This document shows positions 12,134 to 36,174 of a stretch of 45,225 bases of DNA, piece after piece (positions within the stretch are counted from its first letter, which is position 1; each line of letters opens with the position of its first letter). The notes under the pieces are model-generated. The model searched no databases. It saw nothing but the letters and a program-made list of their open reading frames with translations, and was not told the DNA's origin. The translations under genes and the position numbers were made by a program. Source of the stretch: Myxococcales bacterium (GTDB lineage Bacteria; Myxococcota_A; Polyangia; Polyangiales; Polyangiaceae); contig JAAZAA010000015.1 of assembly GCA_012514535.1 (NCBI GenBank), positions 1 through 45,225 on the forward strand, in the 5' to 3' direction.

Positions 12134-12421
12134 ATGCCCGCCAGATCTGGAGCCCCCTTGCGCCCCGACGACGCTGCCCCCGACGACGCTGCCCTCGACG
12201 ACGCTGCCCTCGACGGCGCTGCCCTCGACGAACGATTCATCGCCCTGGAGACCAAGGTCGCCTACCAGGACAAGCTCATCGCCGAGCTGAACGAGGTCAT
12301 CGTGGAGCAGACCCGCGAGCTGACCCTCTTGACCAAGCGCCTCGAGCACCTCGAACGCTACGTCCGCGATCCGGAAGAGGACACCGCTCCGCCCGCGAAC
12401 GAGCGGCCTCCCCACTACTGA
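12134..12421 (+). CDS. slyX: SlyX-like coiled-coil protein with a repeat-encoded N-terminal extension
   Basis: The C-terminal half reads RFIALETKVAYQDKLIAELN, then EVIVEQTRELTLLTKRLEHL. This is the SlyX pattern of a short parallel coiled coil with heptad Leu/Ile positions. SlyX proteins are about 70 residues and have no firmly known function. Here about 30 extra residues precede it, encoded by four copies of a 15-bp tandem repeat (DDAAP, DDAAL, DDAAL, DGAAL). The start is uncertain: ATG 12134 gives 95 residues and leaves 54 bp to the divergent gene, while ATG 12089 would give 110 residues. Neither has a strong ribosome-binding site. Confidence 0.7.
   Translation: MPARSGAPLRPDDAAPDDAALDDAALDGAALDERFIALETKVAYQDKLIAELNEVIVEQTRELTLLTKRLEHLERYVRDPEEDTAPPANERPPHY
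12165..12228 (+). repeat. In-frame 15-bp tandem repeat in slyX, four copies
   Basis: The unit GACGACGCTGCCCTC and close variants occur four times back to back, each encoding D-D/G-A-A-L/P. The unit length is a multiple of three, so copy-number slips would keep the frame and change the length of an acidic N-terminal tail. Confidence 0.85.
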
Positions 12422-12590
12422 TCGGTCGCGGCTCGTCAGGCGCACGGTCGCCACGCCGCGCTCCGCCGTCTCCGCGCGGCGCAGGGCCGACGGTCGCGAC
12501 GGCCACGGAACGAGGCCCCTCCGCAGAGGCGCGCTCCGAAAAAGCTCCTCCGACGAAGCGCAGCGCAGGGCGTCCCCGCGACCGCAGTGA

Positions 12591-12626
12591 CCGGACACTC
12601 GTCCGCGGAACGCGACGAGTGTCCGG
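12591..12626. promoter_or_regulatory. Perfect 13-bp inverted repeat, candidate enhancer-binding-protein site
   Basis: CCGGACACTCGTC (12591-12603) is repeated in inverted form as GACGAGTGTCCGG (12614-12626) with a 10-bp spacer. The dyad centre is about 119 bp upstream of the start predicted from the sigma-54 promoter at 12702-12716, the usual distance for an upstream activator site. A second, shorter inverted repeat (GGCCGCC 12625-12631 with GGCGGCC 12646-12652) follows. It could instead be a hairpin after slyX, but it is 170 bp beyond that stop and has no T-tract. Confidence 0.55.
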
Positions 12627-12701
12627 CCGCCGCTGTCCGTTCTCTGGCGGCCACCCCCTGCCGACACCGGAAAATTCCGGGATTTCGCGGTGAATCCCCG
12701 C

Positions 12702-12716
12702 TGGCACGGGGGGTGC
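12702..12716 (+). promoter_or_regulatory. Sigma-54 (RpoN) promoter, -24/-12 type
   Basis: The sequence TGGCACGGGGGGTGC matches the consensus TGGCACG-N4-TTGC at 10 of the 11 fixed positions. The invariant GG (12703-12704) and GC (12715-12716) have the required 10-bp spacing. The predicted start is near 12728. An inverted repeat CCGGA-AAAT-TCCGG (12667-12680) in an unusually AT-rich patch lies just upstream and could be a bending or regulator site. Transcription would run into the three structured repeats. Confidence 0.7.
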
Positions 12717-12840
12717 ATTAGGTCCGAGCGTAACGACGGCGGGCGTTCTGCTCGAGTCCAATCAGGGAGGTTGTTTGTTGGTTCGGTCGGCTCCTCGGGA
12801 GCCCCGACCCCCAAGACGTAGGAGAGAAATCGAACGAGAG

Positions 12841-12940
12841 CCGAGGAGTCTCGGGAGTGGTTGCGTTTCAGGTCTGACGTGTCCCCCCGCCATCCCCCTC
12901 ATTCCCCCGCGTCCGGCTCCAGCCTCCCCGGACTCCTCGG
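12841..12940 (+). repeat. Structured repeat copy A
   Basis: The outer stem pairs 12841-12857 with 12924-12940 (15 Watson-Crick pairs, one G-U, one mismatch). A 14-nt 5' bulge leads to an inner stem, GTCTGAC (12872-12878) with GTCCGGC (12911-12917), which has one mismatch and one G-U. The loop (12879-12910, 32 nt) is C-rich and contains CCATCCCCCTC. Confidence 0.8.
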
Positions 12941-13121
12941 CTCCCGCTCCTTTCATCCTTCCTTCCGCTCCTTGGCTTCGCCCCTTTCTTTGACGACGAA
13001 CGTCAGGATCGAACGGCTCTTCGGCAGAAACTTTCGGGCGCATCGTCCCCAACTGAGTCACACTGAAATAGAACGGTCTTTGCAGAGCATCCCAGCGAGC
13101 TGACTTTCCCGAGCCGACTTC

Positions 13122-13242
13122 CCAGGGAACCAAGGAGTTCGGACGCGTCGCAGACTCTCTCGGTCGGACGGTCTTCCTCCCCTTCCATCCCCCCCTCCCC
13201 CCAGTCCGGCCCCGTACGCCTCCGGACTCCTTGGTTCTCTGG
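13122..13242 (+). repeat. Structured repeat copy B
   Basis: This is the strongest copy. The outer stem pairs 13122-13148 with 13216-13242: 27 positions with 24 Watson-Crick pairs, two G-U pairs and one mismatch. A 14-nt 5' bulge precedes the inner stem GTCGGAC (13163-13169) with GTCCGGC (13204-13210). The 34-nt loop is almost all pyrimidine and contains CCATCCCCCCCT. One outer pair is A-T here where copies A and C have G-C, a compensatory change. Confidence 0.85.
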
Positions 13243-13296
13243 CTCCTTCTCGACTTCCCATCTGCTCAGCTTGAAGCCTGCCCGGCTGGTGGCCGG

Positions 13297-13402
13297 GCCT
13301 CCGAGGAGTTTCGGGAGCGCTGTGTTCTCTGGTCGGACGCATCCCGCCATCCCCCCTCCCCTCCCCTCGCGTCCGGCTCGCGCTCCCGGACTCCTCGGAG
13401 GC
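13297..13402 (+). repeat. Structured repeat copy C
   Basis: The outer stem pairs 13297-13319 with 13381-13402, with a single bulged base near 13310-13312 and G-U pairs beside it. A 12-nt bulge leads to the inner stem GTCGGAC (13332-13338) with GTCCGGC (13371-13377). The 32-nt loop contains CCATCCCCCCTCCC. Sequence similarity to copy A is high in both arms and in the loop. Confidence 0.85.
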
Positions 13403-13565
13403 CTCGCCCCTCGCCGCGAACCCCAACGGATCAGCCGCAGCGATGAGGGGCGTCCCCCCTTCGACCGTCCCCTCTGCCGTTCGTCGTTTCTTCGCCCGGC
13501 GACCCAGGTCGCGGCCGCTGCCGTAGAGTGCTCCATCGATCCATATCCAGCGGGTCGACGGAAAG

Positions 13566-14999
13566 GTGCTCTTGATCTTCAGCCGAGCCAGCCTGGAGCT
13601 CCTCGCCTCGGGGCGCGTCGTCCTCGCGCTCTTTTCCGTGCTCGTCCTCGTGGCGCTGCTCACCGTGCCCTCGGTCTTGCTGCGGCGCCGAGGTCGTCCT
13701 GCGGCGGCGCTGTCCTGGCTCCTGGCTCTGTTCGCCTTGCCGGGGTTCGGTGTGCTCGCCTGGTGGGCGTTCGGTAGGACTCACCTCGAGCGCAAGAAGC
13801 GACGCCGCGCCCGCAAACACCGCGCCTTCGCCCAGGCCCGCGCCGTGCCCGGCCTGCAGCGCGGGACCATCTTCGATCGCCAGATGCCGCGGCGCGCCCA
13901 GGGGGAGTGCGTCTTCCCGAGCCGCGGCAACCGCATGCGCCTCCTGCTCGACGGCCCCGACGCCTACGCGGCGATGGAAGAGGCGATCGCGGGCGCGCGC
14001 AGCACCATCCACATCGCCATGTACATCTGGCAGAACGACACCACGGGTCGGCGTATCCGCGACCTGCTCGTGGAGCGGGCGCGAGCTGGCGTGCAGGTAC
14101 GCGTGCTGGTGGACGGCTTCGGGAGCCGGGGCTTCATGCGGCGGCTGGGCAAGCCGCTGCTCGAGGCGGGGGCCCGGGTGGCCGTGTTTCTGCCGTCCCG
14201 CTTCACCCCCTTCGACTCACCGCGCACGAACTTCGTCAACCACCGCAAGATCCTCGTGGTGGACGGCGCGGTCGCGTTCACCGGCGGCATGAACGTCGGA
14301 GACGAGTACGCGCAACGCTGGCGCGATGCCATGGTCCGCCTCGAGGGCCCGGCCGTACTCGACCTGCAGCACGTCTTCCTCGACGACTGGTACTTCGCCA
14401 CCGACGAGCTGGTCGAAGACGACCCCGAGCCCGAGCTCCTCGCCCACGCGGGGGGCATCGACCTGGCCATCATCGCCAGCGGCCCCGACAGCGAGGCCTG
14501 GATCCACGACGCCTACTTCCTGTCCCTCACCCAGGCCAAGGAGCGGATCTGGATCGCCACGCCCTACTTCATCCCAGGGCCCGCGATCTTGGCGGCGCTC
14601 CGCACCGCGGCGGGGCGCGGCGTCGACGTGCGCATCGTGGTCCCCGCCGAGTCGGACGTCGTCCTCGTCACCTGGGCGTCGCGCTCGTTCTATCGGATGT
14701 TGCTGCACGCGGGGGTGCGCATCTTCGAGTACGGGGGGACGATGCTCCACGGCAAGGCCCTCGTCACCGATCACCTGATCGGCAGCGTGGGCACCGCGAA
14801 CATCGATAGCAGGAGCTTTCGCCTGAGCTTCGAGGTGGGGTGCTTCTTCGCGTCGCGGGAGCCGAACGAACGGTTGGCGGCCTGGATCGAGTCCCTCTGC
14901 GACGCCGCGACGGAGGTGACCCTCGAGGCCATCGCGCGCAAACCTCTGACGCAGAAGCTGGCCGAGTCGGTGGCCCACTTGGGGAGCCCGCTCCTCTGA
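13566..14999 (+). CDS. cls: Cardiolipin synthase (phospholipase D superfamily)
   Basis: The enzyme condenses phosphatidylglycerol molecules to cardiolipin at the inner membrane. The 477-residue protein has two N-terminal membrane segments (about 17-39 and 46-69), a basic linker (RKKRRRARKH) and two HKD catalytic motifs: HRKILVVDGAVAFTGG (H226, K228, D233) and HGKALVTDHLIGSVGTANID (H395, K397, D402). Length and order match bacterial ClsA-type enzymes. I take the GTG at 13566, which has GGAAAG just upstream. It follows the structured region and the sigma-54 promoter, so that promoter could also drive it through an unusually long leader. Two lipid-exporter-type genes come next on the same strand. 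Confidence 0.92.
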   Translation: MLLIFSRASLELLASGRVVLALFSVLVLVALLTVPSVLLRRRGRPAAALSWLLALFALPGFGVLAWWAFGRTHLERKKRRRARKHRAFAQARAVPGLQRGTIFDRQMPRRAQGECVFPSRGNRMRLLLDGPDAYAAMEEAIAGARSTIHIAMYIWQNDTTGRRIRDLLVERARAGVQVRVLVDGFGSRGFMRRLGKPLLEAGARVAVFLPSRFTPFDSPRTNFVNHRKILVVDGAVAFTGGMNVGDEYAQRWRDAMVRLEGPAVLDLQHVFLDDWYFATDELVEDDPEPELLAHAGGIDLAIIASGPDSEAWIHDAYFLSLTQAKERIWIATPYFIPGPAILAALRTAAGRGVDVRIVVPAESDVVLVTWASRSFYRMLLHAGVRIFEYGGTMLHGKALVTDHLIGSVGTANIDSRSFRLSFEVGCFFASREPNERLAAWIESLCDAATEVTLEAIARKPLTQKLAESVAHLGSPLL

Positions 15000-15201
15000 G
15001 AGTGAAACGGGAGACGACCGGAGCGCCGCTCGGGAACGCCAGCGAGCCTGACGCAGATCGATGGCTCGGATGGTTCGTTCTCACGGGCGCATCGCCGACG
15101 CGCAGCTATAAGAAGGCGCCCTCTCGTTGATTTCGAGGCCCCCTGGGCCTAGCACCCCGTGCACCGCCGGAGCGGCCCCTCCTGCTCGGCGGCCCCCTCC
15201 C

Positions 15202-17862
15202 ATGTCAGCGTCGCCACCCTCCCTCTCCTCGCTCGCCTCCTTCAAGCAGCGTCTCATCCGCGGGTACCTGGCGCTGGCGGGTCGACGCCCCGGCACCGTG
15301 CTCCTGGTTCTGGCGCTGCTGACCACGGTGCTCGGAGCCCTCGTGCCGCGGCTCGAGGTGGATCCTCGCCTCGAGGCGCTGCTGCCGCCCAACACGACGA
15401 CGTCCCAGGCGAACGACGAGGCGAAGCGCCGCTTCGCGAGCGTCTCTCCCTACTACCTGGTCATCCAGTCCTCGGATCCGGACCTGAACCGCCGCATGGC
15501 CCAGCAGGCGCTGGCGGAGGTGCAGAAGTGGCCGGAGACCCTGTGGGCCATCCAGCGCCGCGATCCGAGCTACTTCCTGGATCGGCGCTTGCTGTACATC
15601 GATCGAGGGACCCTCGAGGAGCTCGGCGAGGACGTCGAGATTTTCCTCGACTGGCACCGCTGCGCGGCGATGCCCGGCTGCGTGAACTTCGAAGAGGAGC
15701 CGCCGGAGCCCGACTTCGAGCGCATCCGCAGCCAGTACGAGAGCGCCCCCGAGCTCGCCGCCCTCATCGGCTTGTTCGGCAAGGAGAACATCCCCGATCC
15801 GGAGGCGTCCGCCGAAGCGGAGGCCCCCGCGGAGGACCCCTCCGCGGTCGAGGGGGGAGCGCTCCAGAAGGTGAGCGCCACCCAGGCCTCCTCCAAGCAA
15901 TTCGGCGAGCTGTGTCGCCCCGACGGCGGCGCCTGCGTCGTGCAGGCGACCATCGACGGTGACGCATCGGATCTCCAGTTCGCCACGGAGATGCTCCATC
16001 GGGGCGAGGCGCTGCTGGAGTCCCTCCACCCCGAAGACAAGCCCAGCGATCTCATCACGGCGGTCACCGGCATCTACCGCAGCCTGCCCCTGACCCGCGA
16101 AGCGGTGATGACGGACCTCCAGTCCACCTTCGGGCTGACCCTGGCCCTGATCGTCGGTGTGCTGGCGCTGCAGTTCCGTCGGCCGCGCACGTTCCTCCTG
16201 CTGTTGGTGCCCCTGGGCGTCGGCTCGGTATGGTCGCTCGGGGTGTTCGCCCTGATCAGCCCGACCCTGAACCTGATCAGCTCCGCGGTCATGATCGTGC
16301 TGGCGGGGCTCGGCATCGACTTCGGGATCCACCTGATCACCCACTTCAGCAACGAGAAGGAGCGCGGGCTCGCGACCAAGGACGCCCTGTACAACAGCCT
16401 CGACCAGCTGATGTCGTCCCTGTGGGTCGCGGCCCTGACGACCAGCTGCAGCTTCCTGGCGCTCACGGTGGGGCGCTTCCGCGGGTTCGCCCAGATGGGG
16501 TTGCTCGCCTCCGTCGGCATCATCTGCATCCTCGTGGCGACGATGGTGGTGATGCCCCCGCTCATCCTGTGGCTCGACCGGAGGCGCCCCTTCCAGGGGT
16601 CCGTGATACGCCCCTGGACGCCGCCCAGCGCCCTCTTGGGGCGTTGGCGCCGCGGGCCGGCCCTCGCGGTCACCTTGCTCGGGCTCGCGTGCCTCGGCGG
16701 CGGCATCTGGCAAGCCCGCAACCTCGAGCTCGAGCACGACTTCAAGCGCCTCGTGACCCAGGCCGCAGGCGATCACGGGACGGACTTCGGCCCCGCGCTC
16801 CACGGGACCTCCCGCGGCGTGGTCCTGATGCTCGCGGACGATCCCGAGGCGCTCGAGGCCGCGGGGCAAGGTGTGCGCGAGCGCTACCCGGAGGGGCTCC
16901 GGGGCAACGAGGGAGCCGCGGTGATCACGCCGGGCACGTTCGTTCCCCCGGAGCAGGACGAGCGCCTCGCCGCGATCGCCCGCTTGAAGGCCCTCGCCGC
17001 GGACGCGGAGCGCCACGCCAAGGGCAAGCTCGCGCAGCGCTTGAAGGCCTGGCAGCCCCTCCTCGACGTCGACGAGCCGATCCGCGCCGAGGACATGCCC
17101 CAGTGGGTGCTCGACTCCTTCGCGGAGCGGGATCGCAGCTTCGGCAAGGTGGGCGTCATCTATCACTCCTACTCGAGCGAGGACGCCCACCACATGATCG
17201 AGCTGACGAAGAAGCTCGACGACCTGCGCGCGACCTACCCGAAGGTGCGCTTCGCCTCCTCCTCGGCGGTGCTCGGCGAGGTCGTCCCCCTGCTCGCGGC
17301 GGACGGCTTGCTCGTGACCGGCCTCACCCTGGTGGGTCTCCTCGTCGGGACCTTGCTCGTCGGGCGGTCCCTGCGGCGCACCCTGCTCGTGGTGACGGCC
17401 ATCTGCACCGCCATCGCCAGCAGCATCGCCCTCATGCCGCTGCTCGGCTGGAAGGTGAACTTCTACAACATGCTCGTCTTCCCCGTCGGCTTCGGCATGG
17501 GGGTGGACGGCGCCATCTACGTGGTGTGGTCCGTCTACCGGCGGCGCGGCGTCACCGACTGGTCCGGGCTCCTCGTGAGCTCCCGCGCCGTGCTCGGCGC
17601 CACGCTGACCACCTTCGTGGCCTTCGCGAGCCTGACGACGTCCCACAACGGCGGCCTCGCCTCCCTGGGCAAGCTCGCGATGCTCGTCCTCTCGATCACC
17701 CTCGTGACCAACCTGCTGTGGTTGCCGGCGGTGCTGTCCCTCATCCCCCAGCGCGCCAAGCCGGAGCCAGACAAGGGGCCCGAGGGGCCCACGCAGAGCT
17801 CGCGTGAAGAGCTCCCCGCCACCGCGCCCCCGGTCACCGAAGAGCTGCCCGAAGCCGGCTGA
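15202..17862 (+). CDS. RND/MMPL-family exporter 1
   Basis: The 886-residue inner-membrane protein has the duplicated RND layout: one N-terminal membrane helix (TVLLVLALLTTVLGALVP), a large periplasmic domain, five helices, then the same again. The first half carries LAGLGIDFGIHLITHFSNE and the second GFGMGVDGAIYVVW, each with the helix-4 acidic residue used for proton coupling in MmpL/HpnN-type transporters. HpnN-type members move hopanoids or other lipids; the cargo here is unknown. The ATG at 15202 follows a C-rich leader; the open frame begins 25 codons earlier at a TTG. It lies between cardiolipin synthase and a second exporter of the same family, which suggests envelope-lipid transport. 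Confidence 0.88.
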   Translation: MSASPPSLSSLASFKQRLIRGYLALAGRRPGTVLLVLALLTTVLGALVPRLEVDPRLEALLPPNTTTSQANDEAKRRFASVSPYYLVIQSSDPDLNRRMAQQALAEVQKWPETLWAIQRRDPSYFLDRRLLYIDRGTLEELGEDVEIFLDWHRCAAMPGCVNFEEEPPEPDFERIRSQYESAPELAALIGLFGKENIPDPEASAEAEAPAEDPSAVEGGALQKVSATQASSKQFGELCRPDGGACVVQATIDGDASDLQFATEMLHRGEALLESLHPEDKPSDLITAVTGIYRSLPLTREAVMTDLQSTFGLTLALIVGVLALQFRRPRTFLLLLVPLGVGSVWSLGVFALISPTLNLISSAVMIVLAGLGIDFGIHLITHFSNEKERGLATKDALYNSLDQLMSSLWVAALTTSCSFLALTVGRFRGFAQMGLLASVGIICILVATMVVMPPLILWLDRRRPFQGSVIRPWTPPSALLGRWRRGPALAVTLLGLACLGGGIWQARNLELEHDFKRLVTQAAGDHGTDFGPALHGTSRGVVLMLADDPEALEAAGQGVRERYPEGLRGNEGAAVITPGTFVPPEQDERLAAIARLKALAADAERHAKGKLAQRLKAWQPLLDVDEPIRAEDMPQWVLDSFAERDRSFGKVGVIYHSYSSEDAHHMIELTKKLDDLRATYPKVRFASSSAVLGEVVPLLAADGLLVTGLTLVGLLVGTLLVGRSLRRTLLVVTAICTAIASSIALMPLLGWKVNFYNMLVFPVGFGMGVDGAIYVVWSVYRRRGVTDWSGLLVSSRAVLGATLTTFVAFASLTTSHNGGLASLGKLAMLVLSITLVTNLLWLPAVLSLIPQRAKPEPDKGPEGPTQSSREELPATAPPVTEELPEAG

Positions 17863-18039
17863 GCCACCCACGCTACCCGGCCCCTCCCCGACGGCAGCAC
17901 CCCACCGACCGGCCCGACGAAGCGCCGCTGCTCCCGCGGCCGCGACGGAAACGAACGTTCGACCTTGTTCGGCGCGCGCCATGGGCCGTTAGTGCCCCCG
18001 TGGCCCTCCTCTCCGCCGCGCAGGAGCCGGAGCTCGGCA

Positions 18040-20646
18040 ATGCCTGAGCACCGCGCCTCCACCCGCGAGGCCCGCGAAGAGCGGGCGATCCGCTGGTTGC
18101 TGCAGCAGCGCCTCTGGATCGTCCTCGTCTCCCTCCTGCTCGGCGTGGTGGCGATCCCGCGTACGGTGCTCACGTACGCCTCGTTGCGGAGCGATCTCGA
18201 AGAGCTGCTCCCCGAGGACGCCCCCAGTGTGCGCGCCCTCGACGAGCTCCGCGCGCGGCTCCCTGGCATGCGCTACCTCGGGGTCGTCGTCGACACGGGG
18301 GGCCCGCAGAACGTCCCCCACGCCCTGCGCTTCATCGACGATCTCGCGGCCCGCGTGGAGCGCTACCCCAAAGACCTCGCGGACGGCGTGCGCACCGGCA
18401 TCGAGGAGGAGCGCGCCTTCGTCGAGACGTTCGCCCTGCAGCTGATGGACCTCGAGGACGTCCGCGAGCTCCGGCGCTCCGTCGAGCGGCGCCGTGACTG
18501 GGAGGTCACCCACGCCCTCGATCTGAACCTCCTCGACGAGGAAGAAGACCCGCCCCCCGAGATCCCTTTCCGCAAGCTCCAGGAGAAGTACGAAGCACGC
18601 TACGCGTCCGGCGGCTCGAGCTCGCTGTTCCCGGACGGGCGCTTCGTCGACGCGGAGGGGCGGACGGCGGTGTTGCTCATCCACAGCAGCTCCACGTCGA
18701 CGGGTGCGGGCCCGGATCGGCAGCTCATCGGGCGGGTGCGCGACGACATCGCGGACCTCGGTTTCCCCGACGCCTACGCGCCCGGCATGCGCCTCGGGCT
18801 GGCCGGCGACGTCGCCGCCCGCATGGAGGAGATGTCCGGCCTCCAGGTGGACCTGACGCACTCGTCCCTGATCGTGATGATCCTGGTCACGGCCCTGCTC
18901 TGGTGGTTCTTCGGCTCGCTCTGGTCCTTCCCGGTGCTCGGCGTCCCGCTGCTGCTCGGGATCAGCTACGCCTTCGCCGTCGTCGCGCTCCCGCCTCTGT
19001 CCATCCGAGCGCTCAACTCGAACACCGCGTTCCTCGGCGCGATCGTCGTCGGGAACGGCATCAACACGGGCATCATGCTGCTCGCCCGGGTGCAGGAGGA
19101 GCGTCGTCTCGGCGCCTCCGTCGACGAGGGCGTCCGGCGCGGGCTCGCGGCGACCTGGCGCCCGACCCTGGCGGCCGCCTGCGCCGCCGCCGCCGCTTAC
19201 GGCTCCCTCATCTTCACGGCTTTCCGCGGCTTCAACCAGTTCGGCTGGATCGGCGGCTTCGGTCTGCTGACCTGCTGGATCATCAGCATGACCCTGACCC
19301 CCGTGCTGTTCCTGGCCTGGGGGCACCGGATTCCCATCCCCACGCAGCGCCTCGGCCGCGGCCATGGGCGCGCGTTCCTGAAGGGCCTGGCGGCACGCCC
19401 CTGGACGGTGCTGGCCGTCACGGCGCTGGCCTGCGCCGGGAGCGCCCTGGCCATCGCGGGGCGCTCCGGCACGTGGATGGAGTACGATTTTTCCAAGCTG
19501 CGGCGCAGCGACTCCTGGATCTCCGGGGAGCGCTACTGGGGTCCACGCATGAACCAGACCCTCGGGCGCTATTTGACCCCCACGGTCGTGCTGACCGAGG
19601 ACGCCGAGATCGCGGACATCGTGCGGCAGCGCGTCGAAGCTCTGAAGGAGCAGGGGAAAGCCGGCGGGCTCATCGACTCCGTCCGGACCGCGCGGGACCT
19701 GCTCCGACCGGACCGCGTGGAGACCGCGCGGGAGGCCGCCAAGATCGCGGAGCTCCTGACGCCCCGCATGCTCGCGGAGCTGAAGCCCGAGGACCGAGAG
19801 GTGGTGCAGAAGGCGGTGAGCGTCGTGGCTCGAACACCCCTCACCCCAGAGCAGGTGCCGGAGACCTTGGCGACCGGGCTCCGAGAGCTCGACGGGCGCA
19901 TCGATCGCAACGTGCTCATCTTCCCCAAACTCGACGCGGGCACCTGGGAGTCCAAGCTCATGGCCGAGTTCACCAACGACCTCCGGGAGGCGGCGACCGT
20001 GGCCGGTCGTCCACAGGCCGTCGCTGGCTCGCTGCTCATCGCGAGCGACATCACCGAGGCCATGCGCCGCGACGGTCCGCGGGCCACGGTGGTCGCCCTC
20101 CTCGCCGTCCTCGCCGTCTGCGCGTTCGCCTTCCGCGTCCCCGCCCGCGACGCTCCCGCTCCAGCGGAGGACGACTCTCGGCTCCACACCGCCGCCGAGG
20201 AGCGGATCGCGCGTCTGCGCCGGCCCGTGTGGCTCTCAATCTCCGCCGTCACCTCGATCTTCCTGGGTGTGCTCTTGATGATGGGGTTGGTGGCCTGGTC
20301 CGGAGAGCGCATCAACTTCACCAACTTCGTCGCGCTCCCGATGACGTTCGGGATCGGCGCCGACTACGCGATCAACATGCTGCGCCGTTGGCAGAGCGAA
20401 GACAGCCGCGACATGACCAACGCGCTGGCGTCGACGGGCGGCGCCGTGACCATGTGCTCGGTGACGACCATCGCCGGCTTCGGCTCGCTGCTGGTCGCCC
20501 AGAACCGCATGCTGTTCTCCTTCGGCGTGATGGTCGTCGCGGGCATGGTCGCGTGCCTCGTGACCTCCACGCTCGTCCTGCCCGCGGTGCTCCGCCTGCT
20601 CGGGCAGGATCGCTCCGCGGGCGCGGCCTCGCTCAGGGCTCGCTGA
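18040..20646 (+). CDS. RND/MMPL-family exporter 2 (first half lacks the conserved Asp)
   Basis: This 868-residue paralogue of the preceding gene has the same two-fold membrane layout (first helix LWIVLVSLLLGVVAIPRTVL). In the second half the helix-4 motif is intact (TFGIGADYAINMLRRW). In the first half the matching segment reads VVGNGINTGIMLLARVQ, with Asn where Asp is expected, so only one half may couple to protons. The ATG at 18040 has AGGAG upstream. It lies 177 bp after exporter 1, and its last 14 bases overlap convergently with the lipoprotein gene ending at 20633. Two unequal paralogues side by side suggest a hetero-complex or divided substrate range (inference). Confidence 0.88.
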   Translation: MPEHRASTREAREERAIRWLLQQRLWIVLVSLLLGVVAIPRTVLTYASLRSDLEELLPEDAPSVRALDELRARLPGMRYLGVVVDTGGPQNVPHALRFIDDLAARVERYPKDLADGVRTGIEEERAFVETFALQLMDLEDVRELRRSVERRRDWEVTHALDLNLLDEEEDPPPEIPFRKLQEKYEARYASGGSSSLFPDGRFVDAEGRTAVLLIHSSSTSTGAGPDRQLIGRVRDDIADLGFPDAYAPGMRLGLAGDVAARMEEMSGLQVDLTHSSLIVMILVTALLWWFFGSLWSFPVLGVPLLLGISYAFAVVALPPLSIRALNSNTAFLGAIVVGNGINTGIMLLARVQEERRLGASVDEGVRRGLAATWRPTLAAACAAAAAYGSLIFTAFRGFNQFGWIGGFGLLTCWIISMTLTPVLFLAWGHRIPIPTQRLGRGHGRAFLKGLAARPWTVLAVTALACAGSALAIAGRSGTWMEYDFSKLRRSDSWISGERYWGPRMNQTLGRYLTPTVVLTEDAEIADIVRQRVEALKEQGKAGGLIDSVRTARDLLRPDRVETAREAAKIAELLTPRMLAELKPEDREVVQKAVSVVARTPLTPEQVPETLATGLRELDGRIDRNVLIFPKLDAGTWESKLMAEFTNDLREAATVAGRPQAVAGSLLIASDITEAMRRDGPRATVVALLAVLAVCAFAFRVPARDAPAPAEDDSRLHTAAEERIARLRRPVWLSISAVTSIFLGVLLMMGLVAWSGERINFTNFVALPMTFGIGADYAINMLRRWQSEDSRDMTNALASTGGAVTMCSVTTIAGFGSLLVAQNRMLFSFGVMVVAGMVACLVTSTLVLPAVLRLLGQDRSAGAASLRAR

Positions 20647-21751
20647 AGCGAGCCTCGCTCACGAACTGCAACGTCCCGCGCTGGGCTCCCGGGGCAGCGC
20701 CCGCCGGGGCCCCCCGCGGAGAGACGAGGGCCGAGAGGGACAGCTGGAAGCGCCCCCGGAACGGCAAGGACCGCCCGCTCCGATAGCGGAGCGCCCCCTC
20801 GCCGCCGGACTGCAGCTCCTCGAGCAGGTAGCTCCCGTCGAGGCTGGGCAACGAGAAGTCGTCGCTGGCCGCGTAGCGCTTCGTGCTCACCCGCAGGGTC
20901 ACCGCTCCATCGACGATCGACTCCACCCGAGCCAACCGATAGCTCACCAGATCGAGCCCCATGAGGCCGTCGCGGCTCGTCACCATCCAGAACCCGCCCA
21001 CGCCGAGGGGTTCGTCCGGGTAGGGCAGGGTCACGGCGGCGATGGCGTCCCCGAGGGCCCGCACCACGTCCCCCAGCTCCGCCGGCATGCCTGCCTTCAT
21101 CTCCGTGCGGAGCCCCGTCGCGGCGCCGTTCGGCCACAGGTCGAACGCCACCTCGACGCCCCGCAGCTTGGCGACGGCGTCCTTCACCGGCGCCGGCACC
21201 TGGCCGAGCCCCTGGGGAACCTGCGCACCGACGACACGTCCCCGGACGGCCGCGCGCGGGCGCGGGGTCACCTCCGCGTCGCCCGCCTCTCCCTCCCGCG
21301 CCGCGGCGGGTGCCGCCAACGGCGACTCCTCGAACTGCAAGTCGAAGTCCACGGGCAGCCCCCCGGGGCCGCTCTGCAGCATCACCTCGACGCGAGCGGT
21401 CACCGGGTTCGCCTTCGTCCCGAACCCCCCGGTGAGCTGCATCCGCGGCTCCGAGCCCGTCGAACCCACGGTGATCACCGGGGGCGCCTCCACCCCGATC
21501 TGCGCGTCCGCGCCGCCGGGAGGGAAAATGCCTCGGGGGGGCGGTCCCTCTTGCCCCGGGGTCCCTGGCGCGGGGCCCGCGGCGGCCGAGGCGGACGCCG
21601 CAGCCACGGCTTCCGCGAGCTCGGGCTCGAGCGCCGGCTGGTTCTCCTGCTCGCCGCTCTGCTCCGCAGGGGCGGCGGACCGTTCCTCTTTCTCGTTGCA
21701 GGACAGGGCCAACAGCACCAGTCCTGCGCTCCAAAGGGCCGGGCGGATCAT
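20633..21751 (-). CDS. Lipoprotein of unknown function
   Basis: The 372-residue protein has a lipoprotein signal (LWSAGLVLLALSC, lipidated Cys about residue 17), then a low-complexity Glu/Ala/Pro linker to about residue 75. Beta-rich sequence follows, with repeated strands such as PRMQLTGGFGTKANPVTARV and GAVTLRVSTKRYAASDDFSL. I recognise no named domain. The pattern resembles proteins of myxobacteria that measure as long beta-structures in the periplasm. The frame is convergent with exporter 2 and overlaps its last 14 bases. The upstream part of the open frame (to 22306) is rejected because it has no coding character and runs through the divergent PDZ gene. Envelope location is well supported; function is not. 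Confidence 0.7.
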   Translation of the reverse strand: MIRPALWSAGLVLLALSCNEKEERSAAPAEQSGEQENQPALEPELAEAVAAASASAAAGPAPGTPGQEGPPPRGIFPPGGADAQIGVEAPPVITVGSTGSEPRMQLTGGFGTKANPVTARVEVMLQSGPGGLPVDFDLQFEESPLAAPAAAREGEAGDAEVTPRPRAAVRGRVVGAQVPQGLGQVPAPVKDAVAKLRGVEVAFDLWPNGAATGLRTEMKAGMPAELGDVVRALGDAIAAVTLPYPDEPLGVGGFWMVTSRDGLMGLDLVSYRLARVESIVDGAVTLRVSTKRYAASDDFSLPSLDGSYLLEELQSGGEGALRYRSGRSLPFRGRFQLSLSALVSPRGAPAGAAPGAQRGTLQFVSEARFSEP

Positions 21752-22027
21752 GGCAGCGGAATAATCCCTGCTCCGAGCCCTTGTCCAGTCCGCTCCGCAG
21801 GGCAACGCCGCCCCGAAGACCGCTCGGTTCGTTGCTCTAGCCGGTCCGTCTCCCGGAGGGAGCCCAGAGACGGGTAGCCCGACGGGCCGTCTCCGGCCGG
21901 GACCCCCACGCAGGTACGGCGCAGGGCCTCGGAGCCGCCGGGCCCGCGGATCCCGGGCACTTGGAGCCACTCCGGGGGCGAGCCCTCCCCTCGAGCCACT
22001 GGCTCGCTGATTGCAACTGGAAGGGGA

Positions 22028-22360
22028 ATGGGCGAACAGCAGAAGATCGCCGACGCGTACGAGGGGATCTTGGTCCTCGGGGCGCTCCCGGGGTCGCCCG
22101 CCGCGGAGCTCGGTCTCCGCTACGGGGACGTACTCCTGGCAGTGAACGGGATGCGCACTCGGGTCGTGGAGGATTTCCTGGTGGCCCGCACCCTGAACAC
22201 ACAGCGGATGCGGCTGCAGATCGTCCGCGGTGGTCAGGCGGTGTCCGTCGAGCTGGACATCAGCGAACGGACGACCCGCAAGAGCCTGCAGCAGGTCACG
22301 GACCACTTGCTCGGAGCGAACGCGGCGCCCTCGAGCGAGCCGGGCAGCAAGTCCTCCTGA
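22028..22360 (+). CDS. Stand-alone PDZ-domain protein
   Basis: The 110-residue protein is almost entirely one PDZ domain: EGILVLGALPGSPAAELGLR, then YGDVLLAVNGMRTRVVEDFL, then the strand RMRLQIVRGGQAVSVELDI. This is the layout found after the protease domain in HtrA or in RseP, but here no protease, signal peptide or membrane helix is attached. The protein should therefore be cytoplasmic and act by binding peptide C-termini or hydrophobic tails. A good ribosome-binding site (GGAAGGGGA) precedes the ATG. A bidirectional hairpin follows 17 bp after the stop. The neighbouring genes give no clue to its partner. Confidence 0.8.
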   Translation: MGEQQKIADAYEGILVLGALPGSPAAELGLRYGDVLLAVNGMRTRVVEDFLVARTLNTQRMRLQIVRGGQAVSVELDISERTTRKSLQQVTDHLLGANAAPSSEPGSKSS

Positions 22361-33904: not shown

Positions 33905-34013
33905 CGAGGGGAGCCTCGCGGGGGGCGGTCTTCGAGGGTATCCGAGTTCCCTGGTCAACCCAAGGCACGGCCGCGGGCGCACGGGGTGTGTCCGAGGAGC
34001 CCGAGGGTACCTG

Positions 34014-34069
34014 GCGCCCCGAGCAGAGCGCCCCGAGCAGGCGCCCCGAGCAGAGCGCCCCGAAGCAGG
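34014..34069. repeat. Four tandem copies of a 13-15 bp unit
   Basis: GCGCCCCGAGCAGA and close variants occur four times in a row, ending four bases before the symporter stop codon. The array lies between two minus-strand genes. Confidence 0.75.
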
Positions 34070-34072
34070 AGC

Positions 34073-35977
34073 TCAGCTCGCCGGGCGATCCGGGGGCCGA
34101 GGGCCCGGGGGTGCCTCGGGAGACGCCGCGCCCCCGGGGCTCCCGAGATGTTTCCACCACACTGGAACGGCCACGAGGCTGAGCCCCAGGGTGGCGAGGG
34201 CGCTGCCCCAGCGCTCCGGGCGCAGGACGAGGAGTCCTCCTCCGACGAGGAGGGCGTACACGCTCACGGCCGCTGCCACGACCGCCACGGCGCCCCGGAC
34301 CAGGGCCGCGCGGGGGGCGTTCGGATCGTCCCCCGCGCGCTCTGCGGTGCGCCGCCACCAGCCGGGCGGCTCGACGCGGCGATAGAACTCGACGAGGCGA
34401 GAGGGCTCCGTCGGGGACGTCAGGAGCGCCGTGGCCACGACGGCGACGCTCGAGATCGTGGCCATGCTCACCAACCGCACCCAATCCTCGTCCACCGCGA
34501 GGAGCAACAGGGGCGCCAGGATCACGGACACCAGGATCGCCACGATCTCGCAGGCGAGGTTGATGCGCTCCCACAGCCAGCGCAGCACGAGGACGGCGCC
34601 GAGGCCCGCTCCGAAGAGCAGCGACACCTGCCAGGCCGTCTGGATGGACCGCAGGTGAGTCATGATCGTGACGGAGATCGACACGATGACGACGTTCGAG
34701 AGCCGGGCCACGAACACCATCTCCCTGGGGCGCGGCGCCCGCTTGCGCACGCGCCCGAGCCAGAGCGCCCCGTACAGATCGTTGCTCCAGTAGCTCGCGC
34801 CCCAGTTCAGGTGGGTGTCGATGGTCGACGCGAGGGCCGCCAACATGCCCGTAATCATCACGCCGCGCGCGCCGACGGGCAGCAGGTCGTCGATGCCCTC
34901 CGCGAAGGTGAGCTCCCGCGCCGCGATGGTCGCTTCGGTGATCTCCGACGCGTCGAAAGGGTAGAGCACGAGCAGCGCGAGGACGATGGGGAGCCACAGC
35001 AAGCTGCGCAGGGCGACCTGGGCGAAGGTGAACACCAGCGCGGCGCTCCGGGCCTGGCGGTCCGACGCACAGGCCATCGTGCGCTGGGCGAGATAGCCCG
35101 TGCCGTCGCTGTTCATCTGAAAGAGCCACTGCAAACTGACGACGACGAGGACCGGGAACAGGGCGTCGCTCAAAGGCGGCGTGAAGCTGAGGATCTCCTC
35201 CGCGCGCTCGGGTCCGTAGTGCGCCCGGAGTGCCTCGAGGAGCGAGTCGTGTCCTCCGGCGGCCCGCACCGCCAGCAGCGCGTACAGGGCCGTTCCCAAC
35301 ATCATGAAGATGAACTGCCCCACGTCCGTGTTCACGACGCTGCGCAGCCCGCCCGTCGTGGAGTACAGAGCGACGAACGTCAGCAGGAGCACGATGCTGA
35401 TGACGTTGTTGGTCGTGGCGATGGCGGCGGGCAGGCGCTCCGAGCCCGACCAGAGGTTGGCCCCGGTGGCCTCGACCACACCGAGGAGAGGCTCATACAG
35501 GGACCCGGGCAGCCACTGATGCCACGGCAGAAAGATCTCGAAGACGCGCGTCGCCGCGACAAGCACGAGGGCCATCACGGTGCAGTTGACGACGGTCCCG
35601 TAGTAGACGGCCTTGAGCGCCCGCAGCCAGGGCACACCGGAGCCGCTGTAGCGGATCTCCGTGAGCTCGGCGTCCGTGAGCACGCCGGCGCGACGCCAGG
35701 CGCGCCCCAACAGAAAGCCCATCATCAGGAACGCGAGGCCGTAGCTCCAGAGGCGCCAGAGCGAGAAGACTCCCCCCACCGCGACCAGGCCCGCCACGAG
35801 CATCGGTGTGTCCGCCGCGTACTGGGTCGCGGCCATGCTCACGCCCGCCCGCCACCCCTCGAGGCTCCGACCGGCGAGGAAGTACTCGGAGAGATCCCGG
35901 GACGCGCGGCGGCGTGAGGCGAAGCCGGAGGCCACGCTGTACGTCACGAAAGCGAGCACGATGGCGAGATCGATCAT
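34073..35977 (-). CDS. Sodium:solute symporter (SSS family)
   Basis: The 634-residue inner-membrane protein has 13-15 predicted helices. It begins with IDLAIVLAFVTYSVASGFAS and has the SSS-type start SEYFLAGRSLEGWRAGVSMA followed by ATQYAADTP. The central LLTFVALYSTTGGLRSVVNT segment continues with DVGQF, a hallmark of the family near the sodium site. Another family-like segment is MLAALASTIDTHLNWGASYW. The C-terminus ends in Pro/Gly-rich sequence. The substrate (sugar, amino acid, proline or other) cannot be deduced. The true start is the ATG at 35975-35977; the longer open frame upstream overlaps the PBP gene antisense to nothing and is not coding. Confidence 0.9.
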   Translation of the reverse strand: MIDLAIVLAFVTYSVASGFASRRRASRDLSEYFLAGRSLEGWRAGVSMAATQYAADTPMLVAGLVAVGGVFSLWRLWSYGLAFLMMGFLLGRAWRRAGVLTDAELTEIRYSGSGVPWLRALKAVYYGTVVNCTVMALVLVAATRVFEIFLPWHQWLPGSLYEPLLGVVEATGANLWSGSERLPAAIATTNNVISIVLLLTFVALYSTTGGLRSVVNTDVGQFIFMMLGTALYALLAVRAAGGHDSLLEALRAHYGPERAEEILSFTPPLSDALFPVLVVVSLQWLFQMNSDGTGYLAQRTMACASDRQARSAALVFTFAQVALRSLLWLPIVLALLVLYPFDASEITEATIAARELTFAEGIDDLLPVGARGVMITGMLAALASTIDTHLNWGASYWSNDLYGALWLGRVRKRAPRPREMVFVARLSNVVIVSISVTIMTHLRSIQTAWQVSLLFGAGLGAVLVLRWLWERINLACEIVAILVSVILAPLLLLAVDEDWVRLVSMATISSVAVVATALLTSPTEPSRLVEFYRRVEPPGWWRRTAERAGDDPNAPRAALVRGAVAVVAAAVSVYALLVGGGLLVLRPERWGSALATLGLSLVAVPVWWKHLGSPGGAASPEAPPGPRPPDRPAS

Positions 35978-36058
35978 CCGTTCCCCACGACGGACAGGGG
36001 CTCCCGCGGACGACGGTCCCGGGCACGCCGTCGACGACGAACGCTGCCGCGACGAAGC

Positions 36059-36081
36059 CCGCCACGGACCTGCCGTGGCGG
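36059..36081 (-). terminator. Hairpin between the PBP and symporter genes
   Basis: A 9-bp perfect stem (CCGCCACGG 36059-36067 with CCGTGGCGG 36073-36081) closes a 5-nt loop about 95 bp after the PBP stop. There is no T-tract, so it is a weak terminator candidate. Confidence 0.4.
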
Positions 36082-36174
36082 CCCCTTCTCCACCGACCCC
36101 TACCACGGCGGACGTGGATCTCACGGCAGGCATCGGCTCCGACGTGAGGCCGCGCTCCTTTGAGGCCCCCGACG

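Follow-up and report, generated by a model that had tools for sequence, protein, structure and literature searches.

A candidate genus-restricted structured RNA behind a predicted sigma-54 promoter upstream of cls in Polyangiaceae

The window analyzed here, the whole 45,225-nucleotide stretch of contig JAAZAA010000015.1 from a Myxococcales bacterium of the family Polyangiaceae, carries three copies of a long composite hairpin ahead of cls. Two diverged species of the genus keep the promoter-plus-hairpin arrangement, and the element very likely represents a genuine structured RNA, hitherto undescribed, that follows a conserved predicted sigma-54 promoter and a candidate enhancer. It is best read as a new genus-restricted RNA under putative sigma-54 control, perhaps with readthrough into cls. 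Its predicted structure, conservation, strand, promoter, and enhancer candidate are well supported at the sequence level.

Architecture and covariation of the hairpin copies

All three copies lie on the plus strand: copy A at 12832-12949 (core 12841-12940, C-rich loop at about 12880-12909), copy B at 13122-13242 (core 13130-13234, loop at about 13171-13202), and copy C at 13283-13416 (core 13301-13398, loop at about 13340-13369). Repeat finding places their inverted arms at 12832-12857/12924-12949, 13122-13148/13216-13242, and 13283-13309/13390-13416, respectively. The RNA fold z-scores of copies A, B, and C are -4.8, -5.3, and -6.4, with 0 of 200 shuffles equally stable in each case, and the single copies of the two related species (z of -6.0 and -9.4) likewise fall below all 200 of their shuffles, giving a range of -4.8 to -9.4 for five copies from three species. 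The three repeats of one architecture described by the first-pass annotation are thus borne out by both repeat finding and fold stability. Its core layout also stands, although the stems reach past the cores that it delimited. An inner stem is present as proposed but has nine pairs, with a U-C mismatch in copy A, and encloses a loop of 30-32 nt rather than 32-34. The outer pair described as G-C in copies A and C and A-T in copy B is correct (alignment columns 13/138).

Each unit consists of an outer stem of copy-specific sequence, a near-invariant GAGGAGU/ACUCCUC core, a 5′ bulge, the inner stem, and a large pyrimidine loop. Across the five copies, the loop, carried by a long stem with a bulge, measures about 20-32 nt and always contains runs of at least five C residues; that of one relative, G001, is shorter and U-rich compared with the others. 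The core is identical in four of the five copies, with copy B reading AAGGAGU/ACUCCUU, a constancy stronger than pairing alone demands. An additional GC-rich, hairpin-like sequence, GGTCGGCTCCTCGGGAGCCCCGACC, is located at 12784-12811, between the promoter and copy A.

Covariation is strongest in the outer stem, where 90% of cells are paired and 9 of 19 pairs have changed on both sides. The sample comprises five sequences from three species, three of them paralogues of one genome, and against shuffles that ignore this relatedness, 0 of 500 reach the observed values for cells paired, double-changed cells, pair types, or covariation score, while 1 of 500 reaches the count of pairs with a double change. 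The pairing and covariation statistics drop sharply once the partners are slid by one column. Among 120 matchings of 5′ to 3′ arms, the true one alone reaches its score over pairs p2-p9 and p2-p10, and two reach it over p3-p9 and p3-p10. The inner stem is 96% paired with two pairs changed on both sides and gives a weaker signal, its score and pairing each being reached by 10 of 500 shuffles and its double-changed pairs by 78 of 500. Read on the plus strand, the juxtapositions include 16 G.U against 3 A.C, which favors an RNA of that strand. Selection for RNA structure, as initially suggested, is therefore supported both by this covariation and by homologues in the two other genomes of the genus.

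The copies share no apparent reading frame, since several frames are interrupted by stops and the copies differ by indels whose lengths are not divisible by three; a protein-coding reading was rejected. The earlier description of the locus as the largest gene-free stretch of the window is doubtful, since the 2.2 kb at 33983-36174 may exceed it: none of the three open reading frames tested there (75, 71, and 137 aa) has a Pfam match. The statement that no named RNA family has this layout holds against Rfam 15, which gives 0 matches in the window at the gathering cut-off; at E values up to 5, the region 12560-13570 returns microRNA and IRES matches alone, at chance level.

The long inverted repeats would also be expected of an element acting at the DNA level, such as a palindromic repeat, a MITE, or a protein-binding site. 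This explanation is very improbable: the G.U bias favors one strand, the three genomes hold no convincing copy elsewhere (a MITE or dispersed repeat was rejected on this ground), and in each of the three species the element sits at the orthologous position, downstream of a predicted promoter that reads into it.

Conservation of the locus, promoter, and candidate enhancer

The two other genomes of the genus, G001 and G002, carry one copy each in the same place, between slyX and cls, and their contigs correspond in position and identity to JAKVCH010000025.1 (Polyangiaceae bacterium ALOHA_ZT_49) and NASX01000002.1 (Sorangiineae bacterium NIC37A_2). A search of the window region against 38 relatives returned a weak match in G002 (L009) that proved to be the orthologous element, in the order slyX, sigma-54 site, one element copy, and cls; the same layout in G001 was reached through the cls protein. 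In the window, slyX spans 12218-12421 on the plus strand (Pfam SlyX PF04102, E=4e-19), and cls, which encodes a cardiolipin synthase-type phospholipase D protein (Pfam PLDc_2/PLDc/PLDc_N), spans 13566-14999 on the same strand. The cls proteins of the relatives are only 49-50% identical to that of the window, yet G002 and the window share a downstream ferredoxin gene and a Sua5 gene, which indicates that the loci are orthologous. These two genes directly follow cls in G002, and in the window they are separated from it by two adjacent MMPL transporter genes and a 557-aa gene (15127-22306).

Beyond the genus, the element was not detected. A covariance model built from the five copies scores them at 72-91 bits, a match by construction (90.6, 79.5, and 90.5 bits for A, B, and C), and finds no further match at E 0.01 in 318 genomes of the class or 379 across the phylum, in searches that score only a handful of initial candidates in each genome and may overlook diverged copies. 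The core pattern does not occur elsewhere in 108 genomes of the family, and no element was seen upstream of cls at the inspected loci of other genera (L039-L041, of which L039 has only 292 upstream bases) or of the cls relatives L020 and L021. Two other weak DNA matches, L002 and L012, looked like chance, as did a 9.7-bit match among viral contigs within an open reading frame of a phage-like contig (L106). The window copies are 69-79% identical to one another and 59-67% identical to those of the other species, so the triplication probably arose in the lineage of the window species.

The predicted sigma-54 (-24/-12) promoter, TGGCAC-N6-TGC (TGGCACGGGGGGTGC), lies at 12702-12716 on the plus strand, ahead of the copies as first annotated, and is the sole match in the window (0.38 expected); transcription would start near 12728. 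Sites in the same slyX-element interval are present in G001 and G002, and, given how often the pattern occurs genome-wide, the joint chance of the three is about 3e-9. Of 30 slyX loci examined in the family, three belong to the genus members, one (L060) was unscorable, and none of the remaining 26 has a sigma-54 match within 900 bases (for two of these, L046 and L048, the end of slyX was assigned an atypical offset). The pattern shows no genome-wide enrichment over its reversed control in the window genome or G001, and support for the promoter thus comes from position and not from number.

A candidate enhancer at 12592-12639 contains three CGGACA sites, including the dyad CCGGACACTCGTC...GACGAGTGTCCGG, that start 68-110 bp upstream of the promoter. 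The hexamer occurs 3, 4, and 3 times in the three orthologous slyX-promoter intervals, against 0.14-0.21 expected. It was first spotted by eye, and all 6-mers were tested as well: in 0 of 1000 shuffles does any 6-mer occur at least three times in all three intervals. At least two CGGACA sites 40-200 bp upstream are found at 0 of 25 other scored sigma-54-like sites.

Possible modes of action

An explanation with slightly less than an even chance of being right is that a sigma-54-driven structured RNA acts in trans through its C-rich loop. In this scenario, the promoter at 12702 would be activated by an enhancer-binding protein bound to the CGGACA cluster, and transcription would begin at about 12728. 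The stem of the RNA would keep the C-rich loop single-stranded, and this seed would base-pair, with no need for Hfq, with G tracts at the ribosome-binding sites of mRNAs transcribed from other loci and reduce their translation. Three units in the window species, against one in the relatives, may provide a higher dose or a wider target range. Either a separate sRNA or a leader processed from a transcript that continues into cls would fit. Transcription, the loop-seed mode, the targets, and the direction of the effect are what we infer. The shorter, U-rich loop of G001 counts against this reading, as does the near-invariance of the core, which exceeds what pairing would require. Hfq was not found in any of the three genus genomes.

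The position of the element also fits a cis-acting 5′ leader, in which the sigma-54 promoter would drive cls and the hairpin or hairpins would control mRNA stability, processing (e.g., by RNase III), or translation. This is a substantial though minority possibility. The order and orientation next to cls are the same in all three species (slyX, promoter, element, cls), the element core ends 57-167 nt ahead of cls, and simple scans find neither a sigma-70-type promoter nor, on the coding strand of the window, G001, or G002, a terminator-like site between the two. The latter result weighs against a discrete 3′ end. The two terminator-like matches found in the window (1.1 expected) are at 12559-12544 on the minus strand and at 13609-13626 on the plus strand, inside cls; G002 has none, and G001 has one on the strand opposite to cls. 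Against a leader, the window transcript would have to span about 840 nt ahead of cls, and slyX is equally conserved upstream, so that linkage to cls may be passive. Moreover, loop pairing with the cls start region is not supported: no conserved pairing was found, the duplexes being ordinary in the window and G001 and borderline in G002. The choice between action in trans and a cls leader is close to even.

The large pyrimidine loop, the near-invariant GAGGAGU core, and the repetition of units, as in sponge RNAs, could alternatively reflect protein binding, whereby the hairpins would titrate, or be read by, a protein such as Rho, S1, or a cold-shock or other protein at the loop, or CsrA at GGA. 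Such a role is unlikely overall. Both G001 and G002 encode CsrA, but the search for it came up empty in the window genome (98.8% complete), the one with the most copies, and the GGA of the core is paired within the stem. These two observations make a CsrA sponge unlikely.

Relation to Pxr and 6C/B11 and biological implications

The trans-acting reading has its closest parallels in two known systems. Pxr, an sRNA of Myxococcus xanthus and other Cystobacterineae, has an apparent sigma-54 promoter, a host without Hfq, paralogues in Cystobacter, and an SL1 loop that is essential; a published primer for its positions 13-33 ends in CCCCCC (positions 28-33) (PMC5568312, PMC5684412). These six residues presumably lie in the SL1 loop. 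Like Pxr, the element is myxobacterial, has several stem-loops with paralogues in some lineages and a host in which Hfq was not found, and appears, here from sequence alone, to follow a sigma-54 promoter with an upstream enhancer region. It differs in that the published 21-nt 5′ segment (SL1) has no match in the window even when 3 mismatches are allowed, in that slyX lies directly upstream where pxr adjoins the NtrC-like pxrR/nla19, in forming one long composite hairpin per unit, and in showing no counterpart of the 3′ hairpin with a T-rich tail that ends Pxr. Searching for pxr loci with the primer pattern gave three matches among 379 sampled genomes, each with two mismatches and taken as chance.

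The 6C RNA/B11 of mycobacteria represses through C-rich loops that act on G tracts at ribosome-binding sites (PMC10470900), independently of RNA chaperones according to the title of a paper cited there. In both it and the element, C runs occur in more than one hairpin loop; however, 6C/B11 is actinobacterial, whereas the loops of the element span about 20-32 nt, on long stems with a bulge that follow a putative sigma-54 promoter, and the 6C family covariance model has no match in the window. The likenesses to Pxr and 6C/B11 are resemblances, as the sequence and neighborhood expected of the one family and the covariance-model match expected of the other are lacking. By analogy with 6C/B11 and perhaps Pxr, the pyrimidine loop may well bind G-rich ribosome-binding sites by base pairing that does not depend on Hfq.

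A more far-reaching proposal, held tentatively and with odds against it, is that the element evolved independently as a genus-restricted riboregulator that is controlled by an enhancer and acts through its C-rich loop, in a lineage where Hfq was not detected; it would have expanded from one to three units in one species and be convergent with 6C/B11 and Pxr. If this is true, C-loop pairing to G-rich ribosome-binding sites would be a recurrent chaperone-free solution in GC-rich bacteria. As a covariation-supported RNA family outside Rfam, with a conserved putative promoter and a candidate enhancer in a lineage without detectable Hfq, the element would allow a test of whether C-rich loops generally silence such sites without a chaperone in these bacteria, as well as a study of how regulatory RNA units change in number during evolution.
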